From a virus: a stretch of DNA of 21,565 nt. The translations under genes and the position numbers were made by a program. The number at the start of each line of letters is the position of its first letter. Position 1 is the first letter of the stretch. Below are positions 6,829-19,526 of this stretch, piece after piece. The stretch spans positions 1 through 21,565 of IMG/VR virus record IMGVR_UViG_3300043399_000637; one strand, given 5' to 3'. The notes under the pieces are model-generated. The model had not been told where the DNA came from, did no database searches, and was given only the letters and a program-made list of their open reading frames with translations.

Positions 6829-7548
6829 TTATTTTCTCTTACATCTTTCATTGTGGTATCTACCTATATTTCCAGCATTGCCAATAACCCCACAATGAAC
6901 ACATGATACTTTTTTATTATTTATAAGAGAAAATGTTCCAGCATTTTTAATCTTCTGTTTGTGTTCTTCTGATAATGATGTTCTTTTTACACCTTTAGAT
7001 GCTGCTATTAATTCACCAGATATCCATCTTGGATCATCATGTGTTGTATGAAAAACATTACCTAAAGAATCTTTTACAGTAATTTTACCAGCATTTTTAC
7101 CTTTCATAGATTCACTTCTTTTTTCAAGTGATTCTTTTGTTGGTGCAGGTCTTTTCTTCAATCCTTCTAAATATTTTTCACGTACTTCAGGTCTCTGCAT
7201 TGCTTCTTTAGTACGAACTGAAATTTTTTCTTTTCTAGAAATGATGTTTTCTTCATTTAACCAAGTATCATTTACATTTTTAGATAGATTATAATATTTA
7301 ATTTTAAGTTCTTCATCTTTAATGAATGATAGCCAATATTTTTCTCTTTGATATAAATCATTTCTATTGGTATAAACACGTTCTAGAATCTTACGTTTGA
7401 AGTCAGTGGGACGATGCCTGTGTGCCTGTCTCATCCATGATGATGAACAAATATATCCATCATCTTCTGACCCCCAATGCATACCGATATAGTATCTTTT
7501 ATGTTTACGATCAAACCAAATATAAACAAACCCATATTTTTCTTGCAT
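6829..7548 (-). CDS. Free-standing GIY-YIG homing endonuclease (Seg/Mob-like)
   Basis: A 239-residue protein. The N-terminal domain (about 1-95) has the GIY-YIG core as GFVYIW (residues 6-11) and RYYIG (18-22), with a candidate catalytic Glu69 in LYQREKYW. The middle holds basic helical repeats resembling nuclease-associated modular DNA-binding motifs (NUMOD3-like: RTKEAMQRPEVREKY around 112-126 and SLSEEHKQKIKNAG around 191-204). The C-terminus is a zinc-finger-like Cys216-x2-Cys219 ... His232-x3-Cys236. This layout fits mobile endonucleases of T4-like phages, which cut cognate DNA lacking the gene and spread by repair. It sits between gp13 and gp14 with its own exact late promoter and an AAGGAG ribosome site (plus-strand ctcctt at 7556-7561), and a second late promoter for gp14 lies inside its 3' end. 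Target specificity is not readable. Confidence 0.88.
   Translation of the reverse strand: MQEKYGFVYIWFDRKHKRYYIGMHWGSEDDGYICSSSWMRQAHRHRPTDFKRKILERVYTNRNDLYQREKYWLSFIKDEELKIKYYNLSKNVNDTWLNEENIISRKEKISVRTKEAMQRPEVREKYLEGLKKRPAPTKESLEKRSESMKGKNAGKITVKDSLGNVFHTTHDDPRWISGELIAASKGVKRTSLSEEHKQKIKNAGTFSLINNKKVSCVHCGVIGNAGNIGRYHNERCKRK
6918..6925 (-). promoter_or_regulatory. Late promoter (TATAAATA) for gp14, inside the endonuclease gene
   Basis: An exact TATAAATA on the minus strand lies about 93 bases upstream of the gp14 ATG, within the last 30 codons of the GIY-YIG gene. It would let gp14 be transcribed independently of the inserted gene. Confidence 0.55.
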
Positions 7549-7578
7549 TTAAATACTCCTTTGAAGTTATATCTAGAG

Positions 7579-7586
7579 TATTTATA
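7579..7586 (-). promoter_or_regulatory. Late promoter (TATAAATA) for the GIY-YIG endonuclease gene
   Basis: An exact TATAAATA on the minus strand lies in the 50-base gap downstream of gp13, about 30 bases upstream of the endonuclease ATG. AAGGAG lies between the promoter and the ATG. Late promoters ahead of homing endonuclease genes are known in T4-like phages. Confidence 0.7.
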
Positions 7587-7598
7587 CAAGTATATATT

Positions 7599-8339
7599 TC
7601 ATCCAATCATATCTGTCACAGGAAGTGAATAACTTGTAATCATTTCTTTTTCTAACTTTTCAATTTCTTGTTCTGCTTCATCATAAATCTGTTGTCCATT
7701 GAACTTTAGTCCGCCTGGCATTTGCATACCTTCAAACTTCTTTAGATTAGTTCCCCATTGACGCTTAATCAATTGTGTGCAGTAACGTGCCAACCAGCGA
7801 TCACCCCATGCATCAACAAATGTATCGGGGTTGATAACTTCATATGCTTCAATAATAAGATAATTTCCAGTTTCAACACGATCCCAATCCATGTCGAGAT
7901 ATAACTTATTAGTATGTCTATTATAACGAATTGGTTGTTTACCAACTAACATATATTCAAGAAATTGAATATGTTGCAATGCCATATAGTATGGCACCAT
8001 TGAAACTGATGTTAATGTATAAAGATCATTAAGAGCAATTTGATAACGAATATTGAAAAGATTATTTGTTCCTAGTGCAGAACCAAGATCGAAAAGATTA
8101 ACTGCACCAATAATGTTTTCTGGAAGAGTAATATACTTGTTAACTTTATCTTGTTCTGTTACTATATGCTTATAATAAATTTTTTCTGAACCATCAAAAT
8201 GATAATCGTAATAATACTTTAATGCTTCATCAATACGATCTTCAACCTGATCGTCATCTACGTTGATTTCAATAACAGGTTTACCCAATGCTCTTAGGCA
8301 ATATTCTTTGAAGGATGATCTACTATTTGGTACAGCCAT
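7599..8339 (-). CDS. gp13: Neck protein gp13
   Basis: A 246-residue protein with the T4-like gp13 signature. The N-terminus SRSSFKEYCLRALGKPVIEINVDDDQVEDRIDEAL is followed by KYYYDYHFDGSEKIYYKH. The C-terminal half has RWLARYCTQLIKRQWGTNLKKFEGMQMPGGL, ending in a helical EAEQEIEKLEKEM. With gp14 it forms the head completion/neck complex that closes the packaged head and accepts the tail. T4 gp13 is longer (about 309 residues); shorter versions are typical of marine relatives. It is the first gene of the leftward virion block. Its transcript should start at the TATAAATA at 8371-8378, which faces the rightward hldE promoter. A modest AGGA precedes the ATG. Confidence 0.93.
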   Translation of the reverse strand: MAVPNSRSSFKEYCLRALGKPVIEINVDDDQVEDRIDEALKYYYDYHFDGSEKIYYKHIVTEQDKVNKYITLPENIIGAVNLFDLGSALGTNNLFNIRYQIALNDLYTLTSVSMVPYYMALQHIQFLEYMLVGKQPIRYNRHTNKLYLDMDWDRVETGNYLIIEAYEVINPDTFVDAWGDRWLARYCTQLIKRQWGTNLKKFEGMQMPGGLKFNGQQIYDEAEQEIEKLEKEMITSYSLPVTDMIG

Positions 8340-8350
8340 TTATGGGTTCC

Positions 8351-8358
8351 TATAAATA
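8351..8358 (+). promoter_or_regulatory. Late promoter (TATAAATA) for the plus-strand hldE operon
   Basis: An exact TATAAATA on the plus strand lies 39 bases upstream of the hldE ATG. Initiation would fall near 8365. A GGTGGTG ribosome-binding stretch precedes the ATG. Confidence 0.65.
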
Positions 8359-8366
8359 TCTAATCG

Positions 8367-8378
8367 TATTTATTTATA
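8367..8378 (-). promoter_or_regulatory. Late promoter pair for gp13 (TATAAATA at 8371-8378, overlapping AATAAATA at 8367-8374)
   Basis: The minus strand holds an exact TATAAATA and an overlapping AATAAATA, both matching the NATAAATA late motif, about 30 bases upstream of the gp13 ATG. Initiation from the first would be near 8364, essentially the same position as the plus-strand start. Confidence 0.7.
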
Positions 8379-8397
8379 TTTTTTTGGTGGTGTAGTT

Positions 8398-9558
8398 ATG
8401 ATTACAGTAATTGGTGATTACATTAAAGATATTTATGTTTATGGGAATGTAACAAGAATTTCACCAGAGTCACCCATCCCAGTTTTTAATGAAGTTTCAA
8501 GAGAGATTAAAGATGGTGGTGCAGGAAATGTTTTAAATAACATTTCTGCTCTTGGTTCTAGTGTAAAAAAATACTTCTCATACAATTCAGTAAAAACAAG
8601 ATATGTCTGCAATAATCATATTCTTTTTAGATCTGATGATGAAAATTATCAACCCACAAAATTTAAAAATTTAGATCTCACTGATTCTAAGATCTGTGTG
8701 TTGTCAGATTACAACAAAGGTGCTTTGCATAATTCAATTGATATAATTAATCAGTGTAAATCTAAAAATAATTTTGTAATCGTTGATGTTAAACGACCAT
8801 TATCGTCATATGTTGGATCAGACATAGTTAAAATGAATGAATTAGAATATGCAAATTATGCTGATGATATTAATGATCACAAAAAATTGAATGAAAAATA
8901 CAACATAAATTCTATGGTAGTTACGTTAGGCAAAAGAGGCTGTGTCGTAATGTCAAAAGAATTTTCTGGTATAATCAAAACAAATGAACATGAAGTCATA
9001 GACGTTACTGGCGCAGGTGACGTATTCGTTTCATGTTTAGCACACTTCATGAGTTTAGGGTTTGGTTTACAGGAGAGTTGTGTTAAAGCAAACAAACTTG
9101 CAAGCATTTCTGTAACAAAATTTGGAACATATGTTTTGACAGAACAAGACATAAAGCAATGTAAGTTAGTATTTACTAACGGATGTTTTGATATACTTCA
9201 CAGAGGACATATTGAATATTTAAAAAGATCAAAAGAGTATGGAAATAGATTGATTGTTGGTTTAAATTCTGATGAGTCTGTGAAAAGATTGAAGGGAGAG
9301 AAGAGACCTATAAACAATCAGTATGATAGAAAATATGTTCTAGAAAATCTCGGATTCATAGACGAAGTTATCATCTTCGATGAAGACACACCGTATGAGT
9401 TGATTAAATATTTAAAGCCAGACATTATCACGAAGGGTGGGGATTATACTGAGGATACAGTCGTGGGAAACGACTTAGCAAGAGTCGTAATCATACCATA
9501 TTCAGAAAATTACTCAACAACTAAAATTATGGAGAGAATTTATGAAAAGAACAGTTAA
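8398..9558 (+). CDS. hldE: Compact HldE-like bifunctional heptose-7-phosphate kinase / heptose-1-phosphate adenylyltransferase
   Basis: A 386-residue two-domain protein. The N-terminal PfkB/ribokinase domain (1 to about 248) has VIGDYIKDIYVYG, RISPESPIPVF (20-30), GGAGNVLNN (40-48), SDYNKGAL (103-110) and the catalytic DVTGAGD motif (202-208). The C-terminal nucleotidyltransferase domain (about 255-386) has FTNGCFDILHRGH (259-271), GLNSDESVKRLKG, KGGDY (346-350) and STTKI (373-377). These match E. coli HldE (RfaE), which phosphorylates D-glycero-D-manno-heptose-7-phosphate at C1 and later adenylylates heptose-1-phosphate. It is about 90 residues shorter than E. coli HldE (477), with losses in the middle of the kinase and in the interdomain linker, but catalytic motifs look intact. 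It is the first gene of the operon and overlaps the cupin gene by 17 bases. Exact sugar specificity is inferred. Confidence 0.88.
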   Translation: MITVIGDYIKDIYVYGNVTRISPESPIPVFNEVSREIKDGGAGNVLNNISALGSSVKKYFSYNSVKTRYVCNNHILFRSDDENYQPTKFKNLDLTDSKICVLSDYNKGALHNSIDIINQCKSKNNFVIVDVKRPLSSYVGSDIVKMNELEYANYADDINDHKKLNEKYNINSMVVTLGKRGCVVMSKEFSGIIKTNEHEVIDVTGAGDVFVSCLAHFMSLGFGLQESCVKANKLASISVTKFGTYVLTEQDIKQCKLVFTNGCFDILHRGHIEYLKRSKEYGNRLIVGLNSDESVKRLKGEKRPINNQYDRKYVLENLGFIDEVIIFDEDTPYELIKYLKPDIITKGGDYTEDTVVGNDLARVVIIPYSENYSTTKIMERIYEKNS

Positions 9559-9898
9559 AAAAGGATGGGGAAGAGAAATTATCTTTGCTGATGAAAAGAA
9601 TTACTGTGGCAAGTTAATGGTATTTGATTTTAAAGGTTCAAAGTTTAGTATGCATTTTCATGCAGTAAAAGAAGAAAGTTGGTACGTTCAACAGGGTTCT
9701 TTTATTGTCAGGTTTATAAACACAATTGATGCAACAGTGCATGAAAAAGTATTAAATACAGGTGATACATGGAAAAATGAAGTGCTTGTTCCACACCAGT
9801 TAGAAGCGTTGGAAGACAATTCCATTATTTTTGAGGTGTCTACTAAAGATGATGTGTATGATAACTACCGAGTCATGCCGGGAGATAGTCAAAAATGA
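9542..9898 (+). CDS. Small cupin protein (mannose-6-phosphate isomerase-like fold)
   Basis: A 118-residue single cupin. The first motif includes FSMHFHAVKEESWYVQQG, giving candidate metal ligands His38, His40 and Glu44 or Glu45. The second includes GDTWKNEVLVPHQLEAL, giving His85. This is the ligand layout of metal-binding sugar-phosphate isomerase-type cupins. The opening GWGREIIFADEKNYCGKLM also resembles the C-terminal part of GDP-mannose pyrophosphorylase/isomerase enzymes. It lies inside the heptose operon, overlapping hldE by 17 bases and the HAD gene by four (ATGA), so it most likely acts on a related sugar phosphate or nucleotide sugar. It could supply an isomerase or epimerase step for which no gmhA is visible here, but this is speculation. 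Cupin fold confidence is high; function is unknown. Confidence 0.72.
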   Translation: MKRTVKKGWGREIIFADEKNYCGKLMVFDFKGSKFSMHFHAVKEESWYVQQGSFIVRFINTIDATVHEKVLNTGDTWKNEVLVPHQLEALEDNSIIFEVSTKDDVYDNYRVMPGDSQK

Positions 9899-10188
9899 TC
9901 TATATGATTGATGTGGATGGGACAATATGTGAAAATAAAAATAGTGATTACGAGAATTCAACCCCACTTTATGATAGGATTGAAAAGATAAATCGTTTAT
10001 ATGATGAGGGACATACGATCAATTATTGGACAGCACGCGGAAATACTACTGGAATCGATTGGAAACATTTCACAGAGCAGCAGTTAAAATCGTGGGGGTG
10101 TAAGTATCACTCGTTTAATACTAAAAAACCATCGTATGACGTATGGGTAGATGATAAGGCTATGAGTGATAAGGAGTTCTTTAAATGA
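9895..10188 (+). CDS. Minimal HAD-superfamily phosphatase (candidate GmhB substitute)
   Basis: A 97-residue HAD hydrolase with all four motifs in compact form. Motif I is DVDGT (nucleophile Asp6, acid/base Asp8), motif II is WTARG (Thr46), a lysine follows at 77/78 and motif IV is VDDKA (Asp85/86). There is no cap domain, which fits small-substrate or trans-capped phosphatases. In the ADP-heptose pathway GmhB, itself a HAD phosphatase of about 190 residues, removes the C7 phosphate from heptose-1,7-bisphosphate between the two HldE steps. This protein lies between hldE and hldD and is the obvious candidate for that step, although it is half the size of GmhB. The start overlaps the cupin stop (ATGA), and the stop overlaps the hldD start. 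Confidence 0.75.
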   Translation: MIYMIDVDGTICENKNSDYENSTPLYDRIEKINRLYDEGHTINYWTARGNTTGIDWKHFTEQQLKSWGCKYHSFNTKKPSYDVWVDDKAMSDKEFFK

Positions 10189-10976
10189 TGTTAGTCACTG
10201 GTTCAAAGGGATTTATAGGAAAGAATCTTGTAGAATCATTAGAAGATGATATCTATTCCATAGATATCGGAAATAGGAATCATATATTTTCAAATAATTT
10301 TAAATGGAATAAGATCAATGGCATATACCACCTAGGTGCGATATCCAACACGACTGAGACAGATTTTTCAAATTTATATAATTTTAATATCGATTATAGC
10401 ATTAAACTCTTTGAAAAAGCAATCGAGTATCAGATCCCGATTGTCTACGCATCATCAGCTTCTGTGTATGGAGAAGATACAAGAAACAATAAGATTCAAC
10501 CGTTGAATTATTATGCGTGTTCAAAAGCATACGTTGATCAGTGGGTGATGAACAATATTGGTAAATTTTCATATGTGATGGGTGCTAGATTTTTTAATGT
10601 TTATGGTAATCATGAAGAACATAAACTAGGACAAGCGAGTCCTATAACAACTTTTTCGTTGCAGGCAAAAGACACAGGTCAGATAAATGTGTTTGAAGGT
10701 TCTGAACACATCTACAGAGATTTTGTTAGTGTACAAGATGTAGTTAAATGCATCACAAAATTGCTTCCAAATGAGTCTGGAATATATGATGTTGGAACAA
10801 GTGATCCAATAAGTTTTATGGATGTTGCGGAAACTATTTGTAAAAAATATAATTCAAAAATTAATATTATAGAATTTCCGCAACATCTAAAAGGCAAGTA
10901 TCAAAATTATACTTGCGCTAAGAAGCGATTCTCAAATGATTTTATTCGAGTCCAAGAGTTTGTCGAATCTTTGTAG
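10185..10976 (+). CDS. hldD: HldD-like ADP-glyceromanno-heptose 6-epimerase (extended SDR family)
   Basis: A 263-residue NAD(P)-dependent epimerase. The Rossmann motif is GSKGFIG (6-12). The active site shows Ser91/Ser93 in YASSASVYG and Tyr110-x3-Lys114 in YYACSKAY. Then come ARFFNVYG and YRDFVSVQDVV. The C-terminal LKGKYQNYTCA followed by Arg/Phe-rich residues resembles the E. coli HldD end (LKGRYQAFTQA), which favours HldD over generic GDP- or UDP-sugar epimerases. HldD converts ADP-D-glycero- to ADP-L-glycero-D-manno-heptose, the donor for inner-core lipopolysaccharide. It is shorter than E. coli HldD (310). GGAG lies eight bases before the first of two consecutive ATGs. The last 35 bases overlap, tail to tail, the minus-strand kinase fusion gene. 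Confidence 0.83.
   Translation: MMLVTGSKGFIGKNLVESLEDDIYSIDIGNRNHIFSNNFKWNKINGIYHLGAISNTTETDFSNLYNFNIDYSIKLFEKAIEYQIPIVYASSASVYGEDTRNNKIQPLNYYACSKAYVDQWVMNNIGKFSYVMGARFFNVYGNHEEHKLGQASPITTFSLQAKDTGQINVFEGSEHIYRDFVSVQDVVKCITKLLPNESGIYDVGTSDPISFMDVAETICKKYNSKINIIEFPQHLKGKYQNYTCAKKRFSNDFIRVQEFVESL
10894..10916 (-). terminator. Possible intrinsic terminator of the leftward operon, inside hldD
   Basis: An 8-bp perfect stem (GCAAGTAT / ATACTTGC) with a seven-base loop is followed on the minus strand by CTTTTAG. It lies 26 bases beyond the stop codon of the leftward kinase fusion gene and within the 3' coding part of the rightward hldD gene. Stem and position fit a terminator. The U-run is only four long, so strength is doubtful. 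Confidence 0.42.
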
Positions 10977-11748
10977 CGGAAATTGAATGAATTTCTTCGC
11001 TGAATACTTCTTGTTCAATTTTATAACCTACATCTCTTCCATAAGTTATGTTAACGATATTAGGAACTACCATGATCGCGTACTGTCCGTAATAGTCAGG
11101 TGCTAAAGCTTTGTTAATACGTTCGATAACATCATTAACATTGAATGGATTGCTATCATTCCATCCTTGACAGTCCCTAATCATGATACAGACTTGTCCA
11201 GTCTTTGCCAATGCTCTTTTAAATAGTTCTTGATGACCATCATGCCACGGTTGCCATCTACCTAACATTTGAACTGTGGGGTTGCGGACATCGAATTTAA
11301 GAGGCTTAATGCCTCTAATTATATCTTGTGCTATACGTCTACCCATTCCCTTTGCATCAAAATGCGTGATCCTATAATCGTATTCTTTAGGGGGTTCAAA
11401 TATTTTATTTGTATCTTCATATCTTCCAGATTTAATTGTATCCATCCATATAACATAATCTGGTTTGCCATCTGTCGAGAACGCTTCTCTCATCTTTTCA
11501 GTCGGACAAATAAATTCACATATAGCATACTGTTTACAATTCATTGTTGATTTAGCCAAATCATTCATTCTATACGCTTGTCTTAGTCTTCCAGATTCAC
11601 TGAAATCCCAATCGTCAAATAAACTACGAACGCTGTCAGCGTTATACCACGCAGCTTTTGATTCATTTTGTTCAAGGTTATGGTACAGTTCTTCAGCAAG
11701 AGTAGTTTTACCTGAACCTGGTAAACCCATAATTAAAATCTTTTTCAT
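10942..11748 (-). CDS. Fusion of an APS-kinase-like domain and an HxGH nucleotidylyltransferase domain
   Basis: A 268-residue protein. Residues 1 to about 145 are a P-loop kinase resembling CysC/adenylylsulfate kinase: Walker A GLPGSGKTT (8-16), NADSVRSLFDDWDFSESGR (36-54), ICEFICPTEKMREAF and a shortened end with FEPPKEYDYRI. CysC normally has DGDNVR where this reads NADSVR. Residues about 155-268 are a separate nucleotidylyltransferase: GRWQPWHDGH (163-172), NPFNVNDVIERI (200-211), TYGRDVG and the terminal ISATKIR (256-262), closest in look to NMN- or cytidylyl-type enzymes. Kinase followed by HxGH domain is the order in animal PAPS synthase, but this second domain is far smaller than ATP sulfurylase. 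The upstream sulfotransferase favours a role in making PAPS; NAD or nucleotide-sugar metabolism is the alternative. It is the last gene of its operon, with its ATG overlapping the Cys-cluster gene. Confidence 0.75.
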   Translation of the reverse strand: MKKILIMGLPGSGKTTLAEELYHNLEQNESKAAWYNADSVRSLFDDWDFSESGRLRQAYRMNDLAKSTMNCKQYAICEFICPTEKMREAFSTDGKPDYVIWMDTIKSGRYEDTNKIFEPPKEYDYRITHFDAKGMGRRIAQDIIRGIKPLKFDVRNPTVQMLGRWQPWHDGHQELFKRALAKTGQVCIMIRDCQGWNDSNPFNVNDVIERINKALAPDYYGQYAIMVVPNIVNITYGRDVGYKIEQEVFSEEIHSISATKIRQTLGLE

Positions 11749-12119
11749 AAATCAACTCCAAATTTTTCTTTCGCAATTTCATTTGTTTTTGGATGGTGTC
11801 CTTTACGACAATCAAACTGTCTACATGCAAGAGGTCTATCTTCATAGATAGAGCATTTATTATCAATAAACATTGCACAACCACCGTCTTTATTCTTAAA
11901 CATAGTAACTACTGGACCTACAGTAGGATCAATTGCTAAAATTTCAATCGAAGGCATTGTCAATGATATTGGATATTTACCTGAAGAAACTTCTTCTGGC
12001 GTCAGATGCGGTGATAATAATTTACAGCATGCCGTACACGATCCACACGGCACATCTATAACAGGTTCATTTGTTGATACCGAAGTTAAATTTACGTTAG
12101 TTTTTATAATTCTCATCAA
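11745..12119 (-). CDS. YkgJ-type cysteine-cluster (zinc/iron-chelating) protein
   Basis: A 124-residue protein with eight cysteines in the pattern of the CxxCxxCC family (YkgJ, UPF0153): CGSCTACC gives Cys25, Cys28, Cys31 and Cys32. These are followed by Cys81 (GGCAMF), Cys89 (NKCSIYEDRP), Cys99 (LACRQF) and Cys104. Family members bind a metal, thought to be zinc or iron; the biochemical role is not established. It overlaps the upstream glycosyltransferase gene by 23 bases and the downstream kinase fusion gene by four, so it is tightly coupled to surface-sugar and sulfate genes. Two ATGs (MM) are possible starts. A metal-dependent modifying or maturation role next to these enzymes is inference. 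Confidence 0.8.
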   Translation of the reverse strand: MMRIIKTNVNLTSVSTNEPVIDVPCGSCTACCKLLSPHLTPEEVSSGKYPISLTMPSIEILAIDPTVGPVVTMFKNKDGGCAMFIDNKCSIYEDRPLACRQFDCRKGHHPKTNEIAKEKFGVDL

Positions 12120-13407
12120 AATATTCTTTCAACTCATTCAAAGGAGCATTCCAATTATCATATTCTTTTTGTCTTAAAATTGTGGTATTATCGGAGTACC
12201 ATTTACTATTTCTTGTAGGAAAAGCCCACGTATAATAATTTAGTATTGGAACTAGTACAATAGCTTTTTTACCCATAGCAGACGCCGCATGTGCGACTGA
12301 CGTACAACTTGATACAATGATATCCATCTGATCTATATAATCTAAAGTATCATCCCATGATTTAATTTTGTCTCTTAATGGAATTACTCTATCGTGATTT
12401 ATATCTTCATCTACATGAAATGAATATATTTTTGCGTTTGTAGGCAAACAATCAACTGTCTGATTTAATGGAATCGTGCGATGTAAATCTTGATCATACT
12501 TAGGATTTCCCATACACTTCAATCCAATTTTAAAATCACCATTTAATTTTGGTGATTTTTTTAAAGGACTTATATATGGACCATACCACAACTGATCTTC
12601 ATCAAGATCTAAGAACGTAGGTGAAGCCATTGAATAACACCACAACCAATCATTCTTATATTGTGATAAAGATGTTATAACTTCAAATCCGTTTCTTCTA
12701 AAGATAGATGCTAAATCTTTTCTATCTGTAAACCAAATGGGATGCATGCCAGCATCCTTAAAGTGTTTTTGAAATCTTACAGAAATTATTTCATCACCGA
12801 TACCACCTTCGGCACACATTAATATAGTTTTACCTTTTTGAATTCCACCTTCCCACATATTTTTAGGTGGTAGATTATATTTTTGCCAAATGTTTAATTT
12901 TCTTCCGTCTAAAAGAACATGTCTTAGACCTTCTTTAAAATTGCCATTAGCAAGATCATATGTTCCAAGATTGAATTTTACTCTAAAATCTATATCATCA
13001 GATCTTGGTTGTGTAAGTATTTTTCTTAAAATAGATTCGCCTTCTTTTTTTCTATTTAAAAGAAAAAAAGCCATTGCTTTATCCATAAGGTTAGGATGAT
13101 CATTAGGATTTATTTTTTCATTTATTTCTATATGAGAAAGAGCCTCATGTGGTTTATTAAGATTCAAACACGCTCTAATTATATTGACTCTTGAATCCCA
13201 TTTTTGTTGCGGCGTATTAACAAGATTATAAATCTTTTTAGCAATTTCTAAACAACTTTCAAATTCTCTAATTTCTGAATACAATTTTCCAATAACATCT
13301 AGCTGATCGATGTTAGTACAATACTTTAACATGACATCTAGTACAATTTTAGCGTCATCATTTTTTTTAATAGAAATTAAAAATTCGGCAGTACTTAGCG
13401 CATTCAT
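12097..13407 (-). CDS. TPR protein with a GT9/heptosyltransferase-like C-terminal domain
   Basis: A 436-residue protein. Residues 1 to about 170 are helical repeats of TPR type (for example RACLNLNKPHEALSHIEI at 78-95, KAMAFFLLNRKKEGESILRKI and FNLGTYDLANGNFKEGLRH). From about 190 it resembles a GT-B glycosyltransferase of the GT9 (heptosyltransferase) superfamily. AEGGIGDEIISVRF (199-212) matches the N-terminal GLGD-type loop, and DIIVSSCTSVAHAASAMGKKAIVLVP (362-387) matches the donor-binding motif where Ser/Thr-x-x-x-His-x-A-x-A-x-G is typical. TPR-GT9 fusions are common in marine bacteria and phages. If it uses ADP-heptose it would consume the product of the plus-strand operon, but donor specificity is not readable. 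It shares one base with the methyltransferase stop (TAATG). Confidence 0.75.
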   Translation of the reverse strand: MNALSTAEFLISIKKNDDAKIVLDVMLKYCTNIDQLDVIGKLYSEIREFESCLEIAKKIYNLVNTPQQKWDSRVNIIRACLNLNKPHEALSHIEINEKINPNDHPNLMDKAMAFFLLNRKKEGESILRKILTQPRSDDIDFRVKFNLGTYDLANGNFKEGLRHVLLDGRKLNIWQKYNLPPKNMWEGGIQKGKTILMCAEGGIGDEIISVRFQKHFKDAGMHPIWFTDRKDLASIFRRNGFEVITSLSQYKNDWLWCYSMASPTFLDLDEDQLWYGPYISPLKKSPKLNGDFKIGLKCMGNPKYDQDLHRTIPLNQTVDCLPTNAKIYSFHVDEDINHDRVIPLRDKIKSWDDTLDYIDQMDIIVSSCTSVAHAASAMGKKAIVLVPILNYYTWAFPTRNSKWYSDNTTILRQKEYDNWNAPLNELKEYFDENYKN

Positions 13408-13964
13408 TACTTAATAACCATCAATTTCATTAGTATTTCTTGAACAACATTGTTTTGTGTTTGAACAATCATCTCACATTGCTCATTCGATAAAGATTGA
13501 AATATCTCTTGAAAAAATGGATTCAAAACATAATCTATTGAAACTACTTCAAAATTAACACCATACATTAAACCTAATGGTGTCTCACGTCCATTTGCAT
13601 CGATATCACTCTTATTTCTTTGTTGCGAAAACATAGCAAGAGTGTCTGGATAAATTGGTCTTTTGTGTGTAGGATCAATTAAAAACGTATCGTGTCTTGG
13701 ATGTGGGACTCTTACGTGAATAATAGCATTATTTACACACACTCTGTAAATTTCTTTCATTGCATGAAAGAACCCGTCACCTAAGTGTTCAAGAATATGA
13801 TGGCAAATAACTTCATCTACTGAATTGTCTTTAAATGGGAGTGTGTCTTTTTCTATATCCAAAACATAGTCAGGGTTACAATGAGAAGATATATCTATGT
13901 TTATAAAATTAGATACATTTTCAAATCCAGAACCAATATTAATCTTTAGTAAATTTTCTGTCAT
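13407..13964 (-). CDS. SAM-dependent methyltransferase (class I, Methyltransf_11 type)
   Basis: A 185-residue class I methyltransferase. Motif I is INIGSGFEN (9-17), the acidic ribose-binding residue falls in INIDIS (21-26), motif II covers LDIEKDTLPFKDNSVDEV (35-52) and the HHILEHL post-motif is at 55-61, all standard for small-molecule or sugar methyltransferases. RVPHPRHDTFLIDPTH in the middle resembles methyltransferases of sugar clusters. It is linked at both ends: its ATG overlaps the sulfotransferase stop by four bases, and its stop shares a base with the TPR-GT start. Substrate unknown; a sugar or polysaccharide hydroxyl is the likely acceptor from context. Confidence 0.82.
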   Translation of the reverse strand: MTENLLKINIGSGFENVSNFINIDISSHCNPDYVLDIEKDTLPFKDNSVDEVICHHILEHLGDGFFHAMKEIYRVCVNNAIIHVRVPHPRHDTFLIDPTHKRPIYPDTLAMFSQQRNKSDIDANGRETPLGLMYGVNFEVVSIDYVLNPFFQEIFQSLSNEQCEMIVQTQNNVVQEILMKLMVIK

Positions 13965-14755
13965 ATTAAACTCACGATTTGTTTATCAACGTTATTAAAA
14001 ACTTCAAATAATTGTTCACCTAAAACTTCAATAGGATCGCTAGATGTCTTATTTAGATTAGGACGAATATCATGAAGACCTTTAAATCCCCACATCTCAT
14101 CTTTTTGTTCTGAGCAAGTATTTTCTATGTTATTATATTGATGATTGTATTTTTCTATTTTAAGAAAATTGTAAATTTTTTCTAATTCATTGGATGGATT
14201 AGCAATTAAATCATCGTATTTTACAATATGAATATGATTTCTATCATATTGAAGTCCATGTTTCAATGACATAAATGGGTCAGAAGAATATTCTCTCCAC
14301 AAAAGCATTGATCTATTATATGTATTTATTTCAAGATTTCTTTGCAATAGCTGTTTATCTACAGCATTGTTTGGATCTTTTTCTATTAATTTTAAAAAAG
14401 AAACAATTTTTTCCGCTGTAGGTCGCCACGTAGATATTATTTTTGGATCATCATTAATATATTTTTTAATATTATTAACGTTTTTTGGCCAACCTCTATG
14501 CTTGTCTATAACATATTTTTTATTTACGTGACTATAAAAATTTTTTGCTAAAGATTTTTGAATATTTGTATTGACAGATTCATAGTCATATGTGTATTGA
14601 ATATTCAAATTTGTTAAATTTTGATCTAGTAAACAATATAGATCCATCAATGGACTTGTTGGAGAAACAAAAATATCAGGATTTTGATTTAAAATTGAAC
14701 CAAGAAGAGTGGAACCAGAACGTGCGATTCCACTTAGAAAAAATAAGTTGTCCAT
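13961..14755 (-). CDS. PAPS-dependent sulfotransferase
   Basis: A protein of about 264 residues with the sulfotransferase fold. Numbered from the first of two consecutive ATGs, the 5'-phosphosulfate loop is SGIARSGSTLLGSILNQNP (9-27). DKHRGWP (85-91) and STWRPTAEKIVSFLK (109-123) fit the 3'-phosphate-binding segment, and VKYDDLIANPSNELEKIYNFL (179-199) is the characteristic C-terminal strand-helix. These enzymes transfer sulfate from PAPS to a hydroxyl or amine of a glycan, lipid or protein tyrosine. I prefer the second ATG (14753-14755), because GAGG lies seven bases before it and only four before the first. A CATAAATA late promoter candidate lies just upstream. It heads a run of overlapping modification genes ending in the APS-kinase-like fusion, which could supply PAPS. 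Confidence 0.85.
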   Translation of the reverse strand: MDNLFFLSGIARSGSTLLGSILNQNPDIFVSPTSPLMDLYCLLDQNLTNLNIQYTYDYESVNTNIQKSLAKNFYSHVNKKYVIDKHRGWPKNVNNIKKYINDDPKIISTWRPTAEKIVSFLKLIEKDPNNAVDKQLLQRNLEINTYNRSMLLWREYSSDPFMSLKHGLQYDRNHIHIVKYDDLIANPSNELEKIYNFLKIEKYNHQYNNIENTCSEQKDEMWGFKGLHDIRPNLNKTSSDPIEVLGEQLFEVFNNVDKQIVSLI

Positions 14756-14762
14756 CATTTAA

Positions 14763-14784: not shown

Positions 14785-14792
14785 TATTTATG
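14785..14792 (-). promoter_or_regulatory. Late promoter candidate (CATAAATA) for the sulfotransferase operon
   Basis: CATAAATA on the minus strand fits NATAAATA and overlaps the stop codon of the upstream RCC1 gene, about 30 bases before the sulfotransferase start. It is one mismatch from the strict T4 sequence, so support is moderate. Confidence 0.45.
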
Positions 14793-15930
14793 CCCAGTAA
14801 TCTTCACTTATTGCACATGAAGATCGTCCAGCTGCTACCATTTTCCAATAAGTTCCGCTTGCAACTGTTTGTATTGGTGATGATTTGTTTGTTGTTGTAT
14901 TATCACCCAATTCACCAGAATTATTTCTTCCCCATAACCACAATGTACCATCAGTTTTGATTGCTGCTGTATGATCATATCCGCTTGATACTTGCTTCCA
15001 ATTAGTTCCACCTGAAACTGTTTGTATTGGTGATGATTTGTTTGTTGTTGTATTATCACCTAAATGCCCATCAAAATTCGCGCCCCATAACCACAATGTA
15101 CCATCAGTTTTAATGGCGGCTGTATGAAGTCTTCCACATGCAACTTGTTTCCAGTCAGTACCACCTGATATAGTTTGTACCGGCGATGATCTATTTGTTC
15201 TGGTATTATCACCTAATTGACCATAATTATTTCTACCCCATGTCCATAATGTACCATCAGTTTTGATTGCAACAGTATGCCCTGTTCCTTGAGCTACTTG
15301 TTTCCAGTTAGTACCACCTGCCACTGTTTGAACTGGTGATGATCTAGCTGTTCTATCATTAGTACCCAATTCTCCATAATCATTTCTCCCCCATGTCCAT
15401 AATGTACCATCTGTTTTGATTGCACATGTATTATCTTCACTGGTAGCACTCACTTGTTTCCAATTAAAACCACCTGACACAGTTAGCACAGGCGATGACT
15501 TACGTGTTGTAGTATTGTCACCTAATTGACCTCTAAAGTTATTACCCCATAACCATAGACTACCATCTGTTTTAATAGCGGCTGTATGATACCTCCCAAC
15601 AGATACTTGCTTCCAATTAGTACCACCGGATATTGTTTGAACTGGTGATGATCTAGTTGTTATTGTGTTATCACCTAATTGACCTTCACTATTGGAACCC
15701 CATATCCACAATGTGCCATCTGTTTTAATGGCTGCTTTATGTTCAGACGATCCGTTTATTTGTTTCCAATTAGTACCAGTTGCAATAGTCTGAACTGGTG
15801 ACGATCTAGTTATACCAGTACCATCACCTGCACTATAGCTCCATGACCACAATCCACCTTCAGAAAACAAATCTTTTCTAACAAAAACATCATCAAAATC
15901 TGTTCCATTTATTCTGAAATTAGTAGTCAT
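14788..15930 (-). CDS. RCC1-repeat seven-bladed propeller protein C (putative tail adhesin)
   Basis: A 380-residue protein. The short N-terminus NFRINGTDFDDVFVRKDLF carries an INGTD motif (7-11) shared with RCC1 protein B. From about residue 27 it is entirely RCC1 repeats of about 50 residues, each with LW-x-WG-x-N, GQLGDN, SSPVQT, NWKQVS and HTAAIKTDGT. I count seven, the number that closes an RCC1 beta-propeller. The first repeat has a degenerate start (LWSWSYSAGDGTG) and the last ends SCAISEDYWA. It is the third of three paralogs downstream of the tail fibre. It overlaps the upstream oxygenase-like gene by four bases. A receptor-binding or tail-tip role is inferred from position, repeats and the shared N-terminal segment. 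No signal peptide is visible. Confidence 0.82.
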   Translation of the reverse strand: MTTNFRINGTDFDDVFVRKDLFSEGGLWSWSYSAGDGTGITRSSPVQTIATGTNWKQINGSSEHKAAIKTDGTLWIWGSNSEGQLGDNTITTRSSPVQTISGGTNWKQVSVGRYHTAAIKTDGSLWLWGNNFRGQLGDNTTTRKSSPVLTVSGGFNWKQVSATSEDNTCAIKTDGTLWTWGRNDYGELGTNDRTARSSPVQTVAGGTNWKQVAQGTGHTVAIKTDGTLWTWGRNNYGQLGDNTRTNRSSPVQTISGGTDWKQVACGRLHTAAIKTDGTLWLWGANFDGHLGDNTTTNKSSPIQTVSGGTNWKQVSSGYDHTAAIKTDGTLWLWGRNNSGELGDNTTTNKSSPIQTVASGTYWKMVAAGRSSCAISEDYWA

Positions 15931-16427
15931 TCTTTTTCTCTTAATTTAAATAATTGAACTAATCCACCATTAAAACTATGAAATAACCATGGTCTAAATA
16001 ACATTCCTTGACCTGGTTTCAACACAAAGTCTATTTGTAAGTCCCATTCAAATAAATTTCTGTAATTAAAATTATGTTCGTCTAATGCAGTAGTTGCACC
16101 TGATTGATGCTCAAATATATTTACTGTAGTTTCAGTCAATGCACAGACAAAAATCCATTCATTAGTATCATCAAATCCTTCAAAATGAATCCAAGTAACA
16201 GGTTTTCTAAAAACACCAGAATTATTTTCATCAACTTCAATTTTTGTATTTAGAATTGAAGAAAACATTTCATTAGCGTTTTCTGGGATCATGTTGAAAT
16301 GTGGTATTTGATCGCCAAATTCAAAAGATTCGTATTTTAAATTAGCAGCAATATTGCAAAGTCTTTGTGCATCATTTTGATTGAAGAATCCATCAACTAC
16401 CATAATCTTAACTAAAGGATGTATCAT
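15927..16427 (-). CDS. Putative 2OG-Fe(II) oxygenase-like protein between RCC1 genes
   Basis: A 166-residue protein. The start LVKIMVVDGFFNQNDAQRLCNIAANLKYES looks like the N-terminus of prolyl-hydroxylase-type 2-oxoglutarate/iron dioxygenases. A double-stranded beta-helix is suggested by VTWIHFEGFDDTNEWIFVCAL, TTVNIFEHQSG and KPGQGMLFRPWLFHSFNGG. Candidate iron ligands are His81, Glu83 (HxE, where HxD is commoner) and His150. Arg163 or Lys161 could bind 2-oxoglutarate. The gene is linked by ATGA overlaps to RCC1 protein B upstream and RCC1 protein C downstream, so the three are made together. It might hydroxylate the propellers or act as a fold-derived assembly factor; both are inference. 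The HxE variant leaves open an inactive or non-oxygenase cupin-like protein. Confidence 0.55.
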   Translation of the reverse strand: MIHPLVKIMVVDGFFNQNDAQRLCNIAANLKYESFEFGDQIPHFNMIPENANEMFSSILNTKIEVDENNSGVFRKPVTWIHFEGFDDTNEWIFVCALTETTVNIFEHQSGATTALDEHNFNYRNLFEWDLQIDFVLKPGQGMLFRPWLFHSFNGGLVQLFKLREKE

Positions 16428-17656
16428 ATTGGGTCTGCTCTAAATGGATCTGAAGAGTCGTCACGTATACACGCTATATTAGAATATCCACCTGCAACTT
16501 GTTTCCAGTTAGTACCACCAGACACTGTTTGAACAGGTGATGATTTACTTGCTATACTATTATCCCCTAATTGTCCGTAATTATTTTTACCCCATGTCCA
16601 CAATGTGCCATCAGTTTTAATTGCTGCTATGTGAGTTGATGTAGTAGAAACTTGTTTCCAGTTAGTCCCACCGGATACAGTCTGAACTGGTGATGATTTG
16701 TTTGCTACCGTATTATCACCTAATTGGCCATTACCGTTTGCACCCCATGTCAATAAAGTGCCGTTAGTTGTAATAGCTGCGGTCATACCTTGGCCAGCAG
16801 AAACTTGTTTCCAGTTAGTACCACCAGTTACAGTCTGAACTGGAGATGACCTATTTGTTCTAGTATTATCACCTAATTGACCACTGTCATTCACACCCCA
16901 TAGCCACAGAGTACCATCAGTTTTAATAGCCGATGTGTGAGAACTTCCAGCAGAAACTTGTTTCCAGTTAGTACCACCAGAAATTGTTTGAACTGGAGAC
17001 GATCTAGTTGTTGTTGTATTATCACCTAACTGACCAGAAGAATTTCTACCCCATGTCCATAGAGTACCATCGGTCTTAAGTGCAACAGTGTTATCGCTAC
17101 CCGCATCTATTTGTGCCCATGAACCACTTATTAGTACTGGTGAATTTCTAGAAAGATCAGTACTATTTATTCCTAACTGCCCATATTCGTTATAACCCCA
17201 AGCCCATAATGAATTATCTGTTTTAATCGCAGCAGTATAAAGACCTCCACAAGATACTTGTTTCCAATTAGTACCAGCTGATATAGTTTGTACAGGAGTT
17301 GAGGGACTAATTGAACCATCTTGTTGGTTTCCTATTTGTCCTTGTCCATTTGAACCCCATAACCATAAAGTCCCATCAGTTTTAATAGAAGCTACATGCC
17401 TACGGCCAAAAGATACTTGTTTCCAGTTTGTGCCGCCTGATAATGTTTGAACTGGAGACGATCTTCTATGTGTAATACCAGAAGTACCAGTACCCAATTG
17501 ACCAAAATCATTTTCACCCCATAACCAAAGACCAGCAAACCTAAATGTATCAATTAGCGAAGGATAAACATCGATTAAATATTCGCGAGTCACCAAATCA
17601 GTGCCAATATCTGTTCCATTGATTGTATAGTTTGTATTAGCACCTACATATGGCAT
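16424..17656 (-). CDS. RCC1-repeat seven-bladed propeller protein B (putative tail adhesin)
   Basis: A 410-residue protein. The N-terminus has YTINGTDIGTDLVTREYLIDVYP (INGTD at 12-16), a short segment matching RCC1 protein C and probably the docking part. RCC1 repeats begin near residue 43, and seven can be counted. Repeat 1 is stretched (GTGTSGITHRR) and repeat 2 has an unusual loop (GNQQDGSISPSTPVQT). Repeat 3 is the most diverged, with SPVLISGSWAQIDAG in place of the usual SPVQTVSGGTNWKQVSAG. The last ends in a non-repeat tail, DDSSDPFRADPI. It is one base from the DUF4376 gene upstream and overlaps the oxygenase-like gene by four bases. A surface-binding role on the tail is inferred. Confidence 0.82.
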   Translation of the reverse strand: MPYVGANTNYTINGTDIGTDLVTREYLIDVYPSLIDTFRFAGLWLWGENDFGQLGTGTSGITHRRSSPVQTLSGGTNWKQVSFGRRHVASIKTDGTLWLWGSNGQGQIGNQQDGSISPSTPVQTISAGTNWKQVSCGGLYTAAIKTDNSLWAWGYNEYGQLGINSTDLSRNSPVLISGSWAQIDAGSDNTVALKTDGTLWTWGRNSSGQLGDNTTTTRSSPVQTISGGTNWKQVSAGSSHTSAIKTDGTLWLWGVNDSGQLGDNTRTNRSSPVQTVTGGTNWKQVSAGQGMTAAITTNGTLLTWGANGNGQLGDNTVANKSSPVQTVSGGTNWKQVSTTSTHIAAIKTDGTLWTWGKNNYGQLGDNSIASKSSPVQTVSGGTNWKQVAGGYSNIACIRDDSSDPFRADPI

Positions 17657-18305: not shown

Positions 18306-19526
18306 TTATGATTCCGTAAATGTTACTGCTGCTGTAAAATTTCGACCAACAGATACTTGTTTCCAGTTAGTTCCAAAAGTTATAGTTTGCACCGGTGATG
18401 ATCTATTTGTTCTAGTATTATCACCGAGTGCACCATAGACGCCGCTTCCCCATGACCATAAAGTTCCATCAGTCTTGATAGCTGATGTATGATCCGCTCC
18501 AGCAGATACCTGTTTCCAATTAGTACCGCCTGATACTGTTTGAACTGGAGATGATCGATCTGTAAGATTATTAGTACCTAATTTACCATTAATATTTCTA
18601 CCCCATGACCATAAAGTTCCATCAGTCTTGATAGCTGATGTATGATCTGTTCCAGCAGATACCTGTTTCCAATTAGTACCGCCTGATACTGTTTGAACTG
18701 GTGATGATCTATCGGTTCTAGTATTATCACCTAATTGACCACCAGAATCTGGTGGTGTTTGACCTTCATTGAATGTATAATTGTTTCCCCATAACCATAA
18801 AGTTCCATCTGTCTTGATAGCAGCTGTATGAGAACCTCCACTAGAAACTTGTTTCCAGTTTGTTCCACCAGATACAGTTTGTACTGGTGATGATCTATTT
18901 GTTATGTCATTAGTTCCTAATTGACCTTTAGAATTTGAACCCCATAACCATAAAGTTCCATCTGTCTTGATAGCAGCTGTATGAGAACCTCCACTAGAAA
19001 CTTGTTTCCAGTTTGTTCCTCCTGATACAGTCTGAACTGGTGATGATCTATTCGTTATGTCATTAGTTCCTAATTGACCTTCAGATGCTCTTCCCCATGA
19101 CCATAAAGTTCCATCTGTTTTAATAGCTGCTGTGTGATTGGTAGTAGTAGATACTTGTTTCCAATTAGTACCACCAGATACTGTTTGAACTGGTGATGAT
19201 CTGTTTGTTATGTCATTTGTACCCAATTTACCATAACTATTTTGACCCCATGTCCATAGAGTACCATCAGTCTTGATGACTGCAATATGTGATGCATTAT
19301 CACAAGATACTTGTTTCCAATTAGTACCTCCAGATACTGTCTGAACTGGTGATGATTTAGAATTTACGGCAGATGTACCAGAGGTACCAACAGTATTATC
19401 ACCCAATGCGCCATAGCTATTTCTACCCCATGTCCATAACTGATTACCAACGTATCTTTCTAGTATATCAACATCTGTGATATATAAATTTTTTAATATA
19501 CCTTCAGGACCAGTAAAATTAGACAT
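18306..19526 (-). CDS. RCC1-repeat seven-bladed propeller protein A (putative tail adhesin)
   Basis: A 406-residue protein. The first 29 residues (MSNFTGPEGILKNLYITDVDILERYV) differ from the INGTD-type start of the other two paralogs. It then has seven RCC1 repeats of about 51 residues with very even sequence: LWxWGxN, SSPVQTVSGGTNWKQVS and SHTAAIKTDGT recur almost unchanged. Two blades have longer loops. One is in repeat 1 (TVGTSGTSAVNSK). The other, in repeat 5 (YTFNEGQTPPDSGG), is encoded by a stretch holding a small inverted repeat. At the DNA level, neighbouring repeats share identical tracts at a 153-base period, which indicates recent duplication or conversion. The start overlaps the tail fibre stop by eight bases. 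RCC1 propellers are best known from eukaryotic chromatin regulators; here the context makes a host-binding structure more likely. Confidence 0.83.
   Translation of the reverse strand: MSNFTGPEGILKNLYITDVDILERYVGNQLWTWGRNSYGALGDNTVGTSGTSAVNSKSSPVQTVSGGTNWKQVSCDNASHIAVIKTDGTLWTWGQNSYGKLGTNDITNRSSPVQTVSGGTNWKQVSTTTNHTAAIKTDGTLWSWGRASEGQLGTNDITNRSSPVQTVSGGTNWKQVSSGGSHTAAIKTDGTLWLWGSNSKGQLGTNDITNRSSPVQTVSGGTNWKQVSSGGSHTAAIKTDGTLWLWGNNYTFNEGQTPPDSGGQLGDNTRTDRSSPVQTVSGGTNWKQVSAGTDHTSAIKTDGTLWSWGRNINGKLGTNNLTDRSSPVQTVSGGTNWKQVSAGADHTSAIKTDGTLWSWGSGVYGALGDNTRTNRSSPVQTITFGTNWKQVSVGRNFTAAVTFTES
18738..18756 (-). repeat. Small inverted repeat inside the long loop of RCC1-A blade 5
   Basis: Seven-base arms (ACCACCA / TGGTGGT) surround a five-base loop. 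They encode most of the PPDSGG part of the extra loop. It lies exactly at the insertion that distinguishes blade 5 from the other blades, so it may be a relic of the insertion event. Confidence 0.5.
18787..18866 (-). repeat. 80-bp direct repeat, copy 1 (RCC1-A)
   Basis: This 80-base tract is identical base for base to 18940-19019, 153 bases away. It covers most of one RCC1 blade from the WG motif back through NWKQVSSGGSHTAAIKTDGT. Confidence 0.9.
18940..19019 (-). repeat. 80-bp direct repeat, copy 2 (RCC1-A)
   Basis: Second perfect copy of the tract at 18787-18866. The 153-base offset is 51 codons, one blade. Synonymous sites are identical too, so protein-level selection alone does not explain it. 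Confidence 0.9.

Follow-up and report, generated by a model that had tools for sequence, protein, structure and literature searches.

A putative compact PAPS synthase with a small HxGH nucleotidylyltransferase domain, encoded in a viral genome and related to genes of marine bacteria and haloarchaea

The animal PAPS synthases (PAPSS1/2) and the bacterial and fungal Sat–APS kinase proteins, where Sat denotes ATP sulfurylase, carry out two reactions: the formation of adenosine 5'-phosphosulfate (APS) and its conversion to 3'-phosphoadenosine 5'-phosphosulfate (PAPS). The same two reactions are proposed here for a protein of 268 residues encoded by the virus record IMGVR_UViG_3300043399_000637, which was analyzed over its 21,565 bases (hereafter the window). 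As in PAPSS1/2, and as pointed out in the initial annotation, an APS-kinase-like domain precedes a nucleotidylyltransferase domain; the latter, however, has about 115 residues and three strands instead of the Sat and PUA-like domains and is not recognized as Sat by profile, and the alignment of 1x6v over both domains is a loose match overall (253 residues, root-mean-square deviation (rmsd) 20). A P-loop kinase is also fused to an NMNAT-like domain in NadR, which combines nicotinamide mononucleotide (NMN) adenylyltransferase (NMNAT) with nicotinamide riboside kinase, but in the window protein the order of the domains is reversed, the kinase is of the APS type and the NadR cut-off is missed. Taken separately, the kinase shares its fold and Walker A loop with the CysC-type APS kinases (TIGR00455, PF01583), whereas it is shorter, is devoid of the K-G-x-Y...F-T-G-I-D segment and does not reach the TIGR00455 cut-off. 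The transferase has the HxGH motif, an ISxTxxR-like end motif and the fold in common with archaeal NMNAT and phosphopantetheine adenylyltransferase (PPAT); it differs from these by its shorter length, by a conserved GRxVGY motif and by its neighbors, which in the loci studied are genes of sulfur rather than of NAD or coenzyme A metabolism.

No description of this enzyme was found in the open-access literature searched. Phage genes designated cysC, 62 in one study (PMC10914622), have been interpreted as assimilatory, and so have viral cysC genes elsewhere (PMC10134843); the former probably overlap with the family described here. Fusions of a kinase with NMNAT in jumbo phages were attributed to NAD synthesis (PMC7824862). 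As to SAR11, Ca. P. ubique is said to be without cysDNCHIJ and sat, yet Table 3 of the same paper credits strain HTCC1062 with cysC and cysQ, and one or two other strains with cysN or cysD (PMC5069961). The sulfate pathways of Pelagibacteraceae are termed incomplete, and aprAB count among the core genes with the strongest purifying selection in SAR11 (PMC12636525), a lineage in which aprM accompanies aprBA (PMC2211403).

The analysis presented below leads us to consider that the window protein is very probably a compact bifunctional PAPS synthase. It is likely, if somewhat less so, that its transferase of about 115 residues ("mini-Sat") represents a class of ATP sulfurylase of its own, the third, which would share no family-level sequence similarity with Sat or CysDN, would supply PAPS, when fused or paired with an APS kinase, in phages, SAR11, SAR86 and haloarchaea and would, alone, close the apr route of SAR11. 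The proposed chemistry is ordinary; it is the transferase that is new.

Domain organization of the fusion protein

The fusion gene and its domains and motifs are as follows; the domains, folds, motifs, gene order, fusions and co-occurrences reported in this work were all obtained by computation.

10942–11748, minus strand: kinase–nucleotidylyltransferase fusion gene (268 residues, stop codon included in the coordinates; phrog_10255)
11305–11748, minus strand: APS-kinase-like domain, residues 1–148 (Pfam APS_kinase, fold search)
11704–11727, minus strand: Walker A loop GLPGSGKT, residues 8–15 (79-row alignment A3)
10945–11286, minus strand: mini nucleotidylyltransferase, proposed sulfate adenylyltransferase, residues 155–268 (a separate gene in SAR86 and SAR11 loci)
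11233–11262, minus strand: GRWQPWHDGH (HxGH) motif, residues 163–172 (G, R, Q, P, H, G and H invariant in 79 rows)
11023–11043, minus strand: YGRDVGY motif, residues 236–242 (G237, R238, V240, G241 and Y242 invariant in 79 rows)
10963–10983, minus strand: ISATKIR motif, residues 256–262 (R262 invariant, I256–T259 nearly so)

The initial annotation had placed a fusion of an APS-kinase-like domain and a small HxGH domain at 10942–11748 without naming a strand. These coordinates delimit exactly a 268-codon open reading frame (ORF) on the minus strand, open throughout, and the plus-strand frame across them is interrupted by stops. The protein matches phrog_10255, described merely as "kinase", over residues 1–265 (2.2e-54), and the AlphaFold2 model of the whole chain, based on 79 rows, reaches a pLDDT of 91.9 and a pTM of 0.84. 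That the arrangement is more than a chance juxtaposition is indicated by this model, by the number of relatives (IMG/VR contains no fewer than 595 and the GTDB genomes 344), and by the near-invariance of the motifs in the 79 rows.

The kinase domain is matched by Pfam APS_kinase (PF01583) over residues 4–89 with 45.5 bits, the cut-off being 21.1. In the VIA fold search with residues 1–148, the best values are Z 18.5 and rmsd 2.3 over 148 residues, and the 30 best rows (Z 15.8–18.5) are all APS kinases or the APS-kinase-like domains of PAPS synthases and of fungal ATP sulfurylase; gluconate kinases come next at Z 15.5 or less, a small margin with respect to the lowest APS-kinase rows. Within the Walker A loop, G8, L9, P10, G11, G13 and K14 are invariant in A3 and T15 is nearly so. 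In the alignment, the kinase also shares with CysC-type APS kinases the putative APS contacts D38, R41, F49, R54, R60, F79, P82 and R87.

The second domain contains the GRWQPWHDGH motif (G163–H172) already noticed in the initial annotation. In A3, which does not include the Microvirga relative described below, the invariant residues are G163, R164, Q166, P167, H169, G171, H172, N200, P201, P229 and N230, followed toward the C-terminus by G237, R238, V240, G241, Y242 and R262; in five aligned haloarchaeal relatives the counterpart of ISATKIR is ISGTETR. Modeled alone by AlphaFold2, the domain has three strands and a pLDDT of 87.3, and VIA retrieves PPAT and NMNAT at Z of about 10 (rmsd 2.6–3.6, 102–112 residues), with identities of 20–28% to the NMNAT rows and 9–23% to the PPAT rows. 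It thus carries the HxGH and ISxTxxR-like motifs of the HxGH superfamily on the common fold. CTP_transf_like matches residues 163–211 with 19.0 bits, just below its cut-off of 21, which the relative from Halostagnicola exceeds. The NMN adenylyltransferase model NF002243 matches residues 161–229 (5.7e-8) with 32.5 bits, far from its cut-off of 127; TIGR01527, also an NMN adenylyltransferase (28.6 vs. 181.2), NadR TIGR01526 (17.6 vs. 341) and Sat PF01747 (16.4 vs. 24.3) are missed as well, the last one also by a SAR11 mini-transferase (17.8 bits, genome G416). From the invariant residues together with the fold, the domain gives the impression of a shortened but intact HxGH enzyme, by descent nearer to NMNAT and PPAT than to Sat, and we read its likeness to NMN adenylyltransferases as a trace of ancestry. 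No known Sat structure appears in the 50 best rows of the fold searches made with the transferase, which alone rules out nothing. An origin from a trimmed ATP sulfurylase was considered and rejected on the sub-threshold PF01747 score and on the comparison by hhalign with three ATP sulfurylases given below. The GRD of YGRDVGY was not relied on as the GRDxxG motif of Sat, since YGRGVGY stands in its place in SAR86 and in many relatives from SAR11.

Relatives and their genomic neighborhoods

In the window, which we read as part of a T4-like myovirus from its tail, terminase and neck genes, the fusion gene is the last of five overlapping minus-strand genes, the first of which encodes a sulfotransferase; three genes lie between the two, and neighboring genes overlap by 1–23 nt.

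11745–12119, minus strand: CxxCxxCC protein (PF03692, 38.4 bits; 4-nt overlap with the fusion gene)
12097–13407, minus strand: 436-residue protein, tetratricopeptide-repeat (TPR)-like by eye (sub-threshold RPN7 match only)
13407–13964, minus strand: methyltransferase (PF08241, 31.3 bits)
13961–14758, minus strand: sulfotransferase, proposed consumer of PAPS (Sulfotransfer_3 51.6 bits, Sulfotransfer_1 42.7 bits, both above cut-off)

Judged by gene order, the earlier statement that a sulfotransferase belongs to the same operon is borne out, and the locus has the architecture of a PAPS synthase, with both domains in one chain and a putative consumer of PAPS in the same gene run.

For the wider survey, 80 loci per scan were retained, the best of the 595 in IMG/VR and of the 344 in GTDB, so that divergent members are under-sampled. 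Since clustering of the neighbors seemed to merge sulfotransferases with TPR-like proteins, sulfotransferases were counted by means of an HMM (Hidden Markov Model) seeded with the window sulfotransferase. It recovered a sulfotransferase in 35 of the 80 phage loci selected by the gene, in 4/80 control loci centered on a neck gene and in 0/80 centered on the terminase; the latter control is the weaker one, reaching 10 kb only and including, as one of its 80 loci (L166), the contig of L001. Among the neck-gene loci, the fusion is present in three, and together with the sulfotransferase in two. Pfam families were further searched (E 0.001) in 43 phage records, 40 contigs of at least 25 kb and three isolates. 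PAPS reductase was rejected as a consumer of PAPS in phages, PF01507 (CysH/CysD) being above cut-off in 0/43 records; this, with sulfotransferases in about half of them, differs from the reading of phage cysC as assimilatory sulfate reduction (PMC10914622). A DUF2061 membrane protein, an assignment checked against Pfam in one phage locus, is encoded within two genes of the fusion in 11 phage loci (L005, 4291–4659; cluster c10 in 10 others). Next to the fusion, locus L045 has a second P-loop kinase ORF (7488–8381), with the kinase part C-terminal.

In cellular genomes the two domains occur fused, split and alone. The best 80 GTDB loci, mostly from SAR11 and SAR86, include the main fused cluster in 29, a separate kinase gene in 46 and a separate transferase gene in 49. 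In Rhizobium sp. BK376, a single ORF of 555 residues consists of Sulfotransfer_2, APS_kinase and CTP_transf_like, all above Pfam cut-offs. A plasmid search with this protein gave 211 matching records, 10 of which cover at least 80% of the query, nine haloarchaeal and the tenth from Microvirga. In 8/8 annotated haloarchaeal plasmid loci, an annotated sulfotransferase gene is situated upstream, either immediately or with a single small gene in between (the ninth, Natronococcus AD-5, is unannotated and was excluded from the count), above Pfam cut-off in the five tested. The kinase half from Halostagnicola, the one tested, is fused to a mini-transferase and exceeds the TIGR00455 apsK cut-off (160.3 vs. 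138.7). Directly downstream, a gene of the YqcI/YcgG family is present in seven of the eight annotated haloarchaeal loci (L315, L316, L317, L321, L402, L403, L404). The Microvirga locus also has a sulfotransferase upstream, and downstream CysD and CysN (543 and 617 bits, equivalog cut-offs 413 and 590), while in its transferase HxGH, YGRDVGY and ISATKIR are replaced by FHESH, HGLDLGY and VSPTAVQ. This pattern, a single case, is the one expected after a takeover of the transferase step by CysDN. The C-terminal end of the Microvirga CysN is DUF2061 (L314, 8181–9770; 38% identity over 73 residues with the phage-locus DUF2061, 6e-17), by sequence a second link of DUF2061 to sulfate activation.

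In SAR86, kinase and transferase are encoded by separate adjoining genes. Within the order of a complete SAR86 genome (116 genomes), the transferase is found in 71 and Sulfotransfer_3 in 73, with 67 genomes having both, four only the transferase, six only Sulfotransfer_3 and 39 neither (Fisher 6e-20, uncorrected for kinship); the sulfotransferase and transferase matches are spaced by 547–576 bases in at least 13 genomes. True Sat was detected in one of the 116, and therefore no other known source of APS is apparent in the remaining 115. PF01507 (CysD/CysH) matched in 32/116 at E 0.001, of which 14 above cut-off, with 29 bits or less in all but one; the sole strong match (2.9e-12) belongs to G124, one of the six genomes with a sulfotransferase and without the transferase. 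In another genome, G126, a pyruvate-kinase barrel is fused to a true ATP sulfurylase beside a marginal sulfotransferase match. A SAR86 ORF (L165, 7–2160) unites a pyruvate-kinase barrel, PUA_2 and a true ATP sulfurylase in one chain.

The SAR11 sample comprises 248 genomes of one family, 188 of which possess the fusion or its parts (one marginal, 8e-4) and 149 Sulfotransfer_3. The 58 transferase loci inspected were hand-picked from the 188 genomes, partly from the top of the match list, and are not a random sample (L272 and L273, SAR86-order regions without transferase, were left out). Thirty are located within an aprMBA cluster, 29 without kinase and one as a pair (L256). The kinase-less ones have the transferase by aprM-aprB-aprA, adjoining aprM in 28, and a TauE-type gene beyond. 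In L256 and L265, the two loci tested, AprA (995 bits vs. 642) and AprB (189 vs. 136) score above the equivalog cut-offs; the apr genes of the others were identified by similarity to L265. The remaining loci are pairs near a DmdA-like gene (17), other pairs (3), transferases alone elsewhere (6) and fusions (2). Sulfotransfer_3 accompanies a linked kinase in 21/23 genomes vs. 9/35 for the transferase alone (p 7e-7), and was found in 6/29 genomes with an apr-linked, kinase-less transferase. A tree of 88 transferases requires two origins for the apr-labeled rows, 13 in number (two with a TauE neighbor only), of which 12 form one clade (99/81) and L256 stands elsewhere; the forks are rough because the alignment is short and the bootstrap unsettled. 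The phage rows group there with two Bacteroidetes-labeled bin contigs, possibly viral. In G416 (L269), a full-length APS kinase (Pfam 98.5 bits), the mini-transferase, a pyruvate-kinase-barrel gene and a sulfotransferase are contiguous, in this order, the barrel being the one that is joined to true Sat in SAR86 G126. DmdA-like genes, whose best match is the dimethylsulfoniopropionate demethylase family at a score below cut-off, recur near the kinase–transferase genes of SAR11 and SAR86 (for example L257, 9230–10588; L122, 5633–6784). In L264, L282 and L298, the transferase lies by a TauE-type gene with no aprA in the fetched region; the apr cluster may have been lost.

Proposed reactions and alternative explanations

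APS is common to the two settings of the transferase, with sulfotransferases where a kinase is present and with APS reductase where it is not, and therefore we infer that the transferase is a sulfate adenylyltransferase; as it would make APS and is fused to an APS kinase, the fusion would then be a PAPS synthase. Written out as a scheme, the C-terminal HxGH domain would convert sulfate and ATP to APS and pyrophosphate; it would have arisen inside the NMNAT/PPAT-like branch of the HxGH nucleotidylyltransferases and would add a third lineage to Sat (PF01747) and CysDN. The N-terminal domain would phosphorylate APS at the 3'-OH, and the sulfotransferase at the head of the gene run would use the resulting PAPS to sulfate an acceptor, at a guess a glycan or protein of the virion or of the host surface. 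Both catalytic activities and the acceptor are thus put forward from computed evidence. In SAR11, the kinase-less transferase by aprMBA may be the missing Sat, working from APS and pyrophosphate to sulfate and ATP. The suggestion of a miniature PAPS-making enzyme in the initial annotation gains support from the fusion and operons with sulfotransferases, from the co-distribution, from the occurrence of the domains split, fused and alone, and from the apr-linked transferase of SAR11.

Several observations weigh against this proposal. The window kinase misses the apsK equivalog cut-off of TIGR00455 (35.1 vs. 138.7 bits), as does, at 110.5 bits, the APS kinase of G416, and in the alignment it lacks the K-G-x-Y...F-T-G-I-D-x-P segment present in five haloarchaeal relatives. 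Among sequence models, those for NMN adenylyltransferases come closest to the transferase, and hhalign gives a probability of 3.4% against three ATP sulfurylases, in agreement with the first impression that this domain is nearer to the former than to the latter. Co-occurrence is weaker in SAR11 (128 genomes with both, 60 with the transferase or fusion but no sulfotransferase, 21 with the sulfotransferase alone and 39 without either; odds ratio 4), where true Sat is above cut-off in 14/248 genomes, 12 of which also hold the mini-transferase family (G365 has Sat and a sulfotransferase without it); moreover, the p-values overstate independence because the genomes are related and incomplete. In the position-matched neck-gene control, two of the four sulfotransferase loci are without the fusion. 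Among the 43 phage records, only 19 have Sulfotransfer_3 and 20 Sulfotransfer_1 (19 above cut-off); Sulfotransfer_3 was not found in 21 of the 40 contigs, and neither family was found in DLP_6, Bhz60 and Suzuki, the three isolates covered out of five phage isolates that carry the gene (the other two being AhaSv and Clavibacter phage 33). By annotation, a NADAR gene adjoins the fusion in Bhz60, the gene layout of Suzuki being the same, and FolE/QueD/QueE-like genes surround it in five phage loci (clusters 41–43, by eye). Phages without a sulfotransferase of their own may use those of the host or others, or may need the enzyme for another purpose.

Such an other role could be NAD salvage, with the kinase converting nicotinamide riboside to NMN and the transferase NMN to NAD, as in a NadR with reversed domains. 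The NMN adenylyltransferase models, the published reading of the jumbo-phage fusions (PMC7824862) and the NADAR gene of Bhz60 point in this direction, yet the scores stay far off the NMNAT and NadR cut-offs, the kinase folds as an APS kinase with a Halostagnicola relative passing the apsK cut-off, and the neighbors are sulfotransferase, APS reductase and sulfite-exporter-type genes. NAD genes in the absence of sulfotransferases, which the initial annotation had regarded as decisive against PAPS if consistent, were not encountered in the cellular loci examined and are seen in part in phages, through the three isolates and the NADAR gene, so that for phages the NAD alternative keeps some probability. 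The context points to APS and PAPS rather than NAD, and we hold NAD salvage to be highly improbable.

Two further explanations are only slightly less improbable. HxGH transferases take many acceptors, and there are APS-kinase homologues with other nucleotide substrates; the product might then be another PAPS-like donor, or an activated sugar or polyol, for enzymes of the sulfotransferase fold, comparable to the 3'-phospho-CDP-X donor of Campylobacter phosphoramidate. The ADP-heptose-type genes on the opposite strand of the window would suit this idea, for which we see little likelihood: the kinase-less mini-transferase beside aprMBA points to APS itself, and the sulfotransferases of the three associated Pfam families are generally PAPS users. 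It is just as doubtful that the protein is an APS kinase supplied with APS by the host, its transferase being regulatory or inactive. Microvirga, which retains the kinase beside CysDN with altered transferase motifs, could be taken as an example, but none of the 79 rows (Microvirga not included) departs from HxGH, GRxVGY or the final R, the transferase stands without kinase at 29 sampled apr loci, and 115 of the 116 SAR86-order genomes show no Sat.

If the protein and its relatives are indeed PAPS synthases and sulfate adenylyltransferases, an enzyme of 115 residues would give SAR11 both ATP-yielding sulfite oxidation and a PAPS supply, and these very abundant bacteria would possess a closed route from sulfite over APS to sulfate and ATP, which has been called incomplete. 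Of the phage cysC genes, at least some would be tools for sulfation and not for making cysteine, and the domain would illustrate to what size an enzyme of sulfate activation can be reduced.

Other genes of the window

On the plus strand, positions 8398–10976 hold an ADP-heptose-type run composed of an HldE-like gene, a cupin, a HAD phosphatase and an HldD-like epimerase, the last of which shares 35 nt with the end of the fusion gene. Three paralogues with RCC1-like WxWGxNxxGQLG repeats are encoded on the minus strand, immediately upstream of the gene run headed by the sulfotransferase (14788–15930, 16424–17656 and 18306–19526); judged by eye, their products are possible virion acceptors. Surrounded by neck and tail genes, the minus-strand gene at 6829–7548 looks, also by eye, like an inserted GIY-YIG homing endonuclease.

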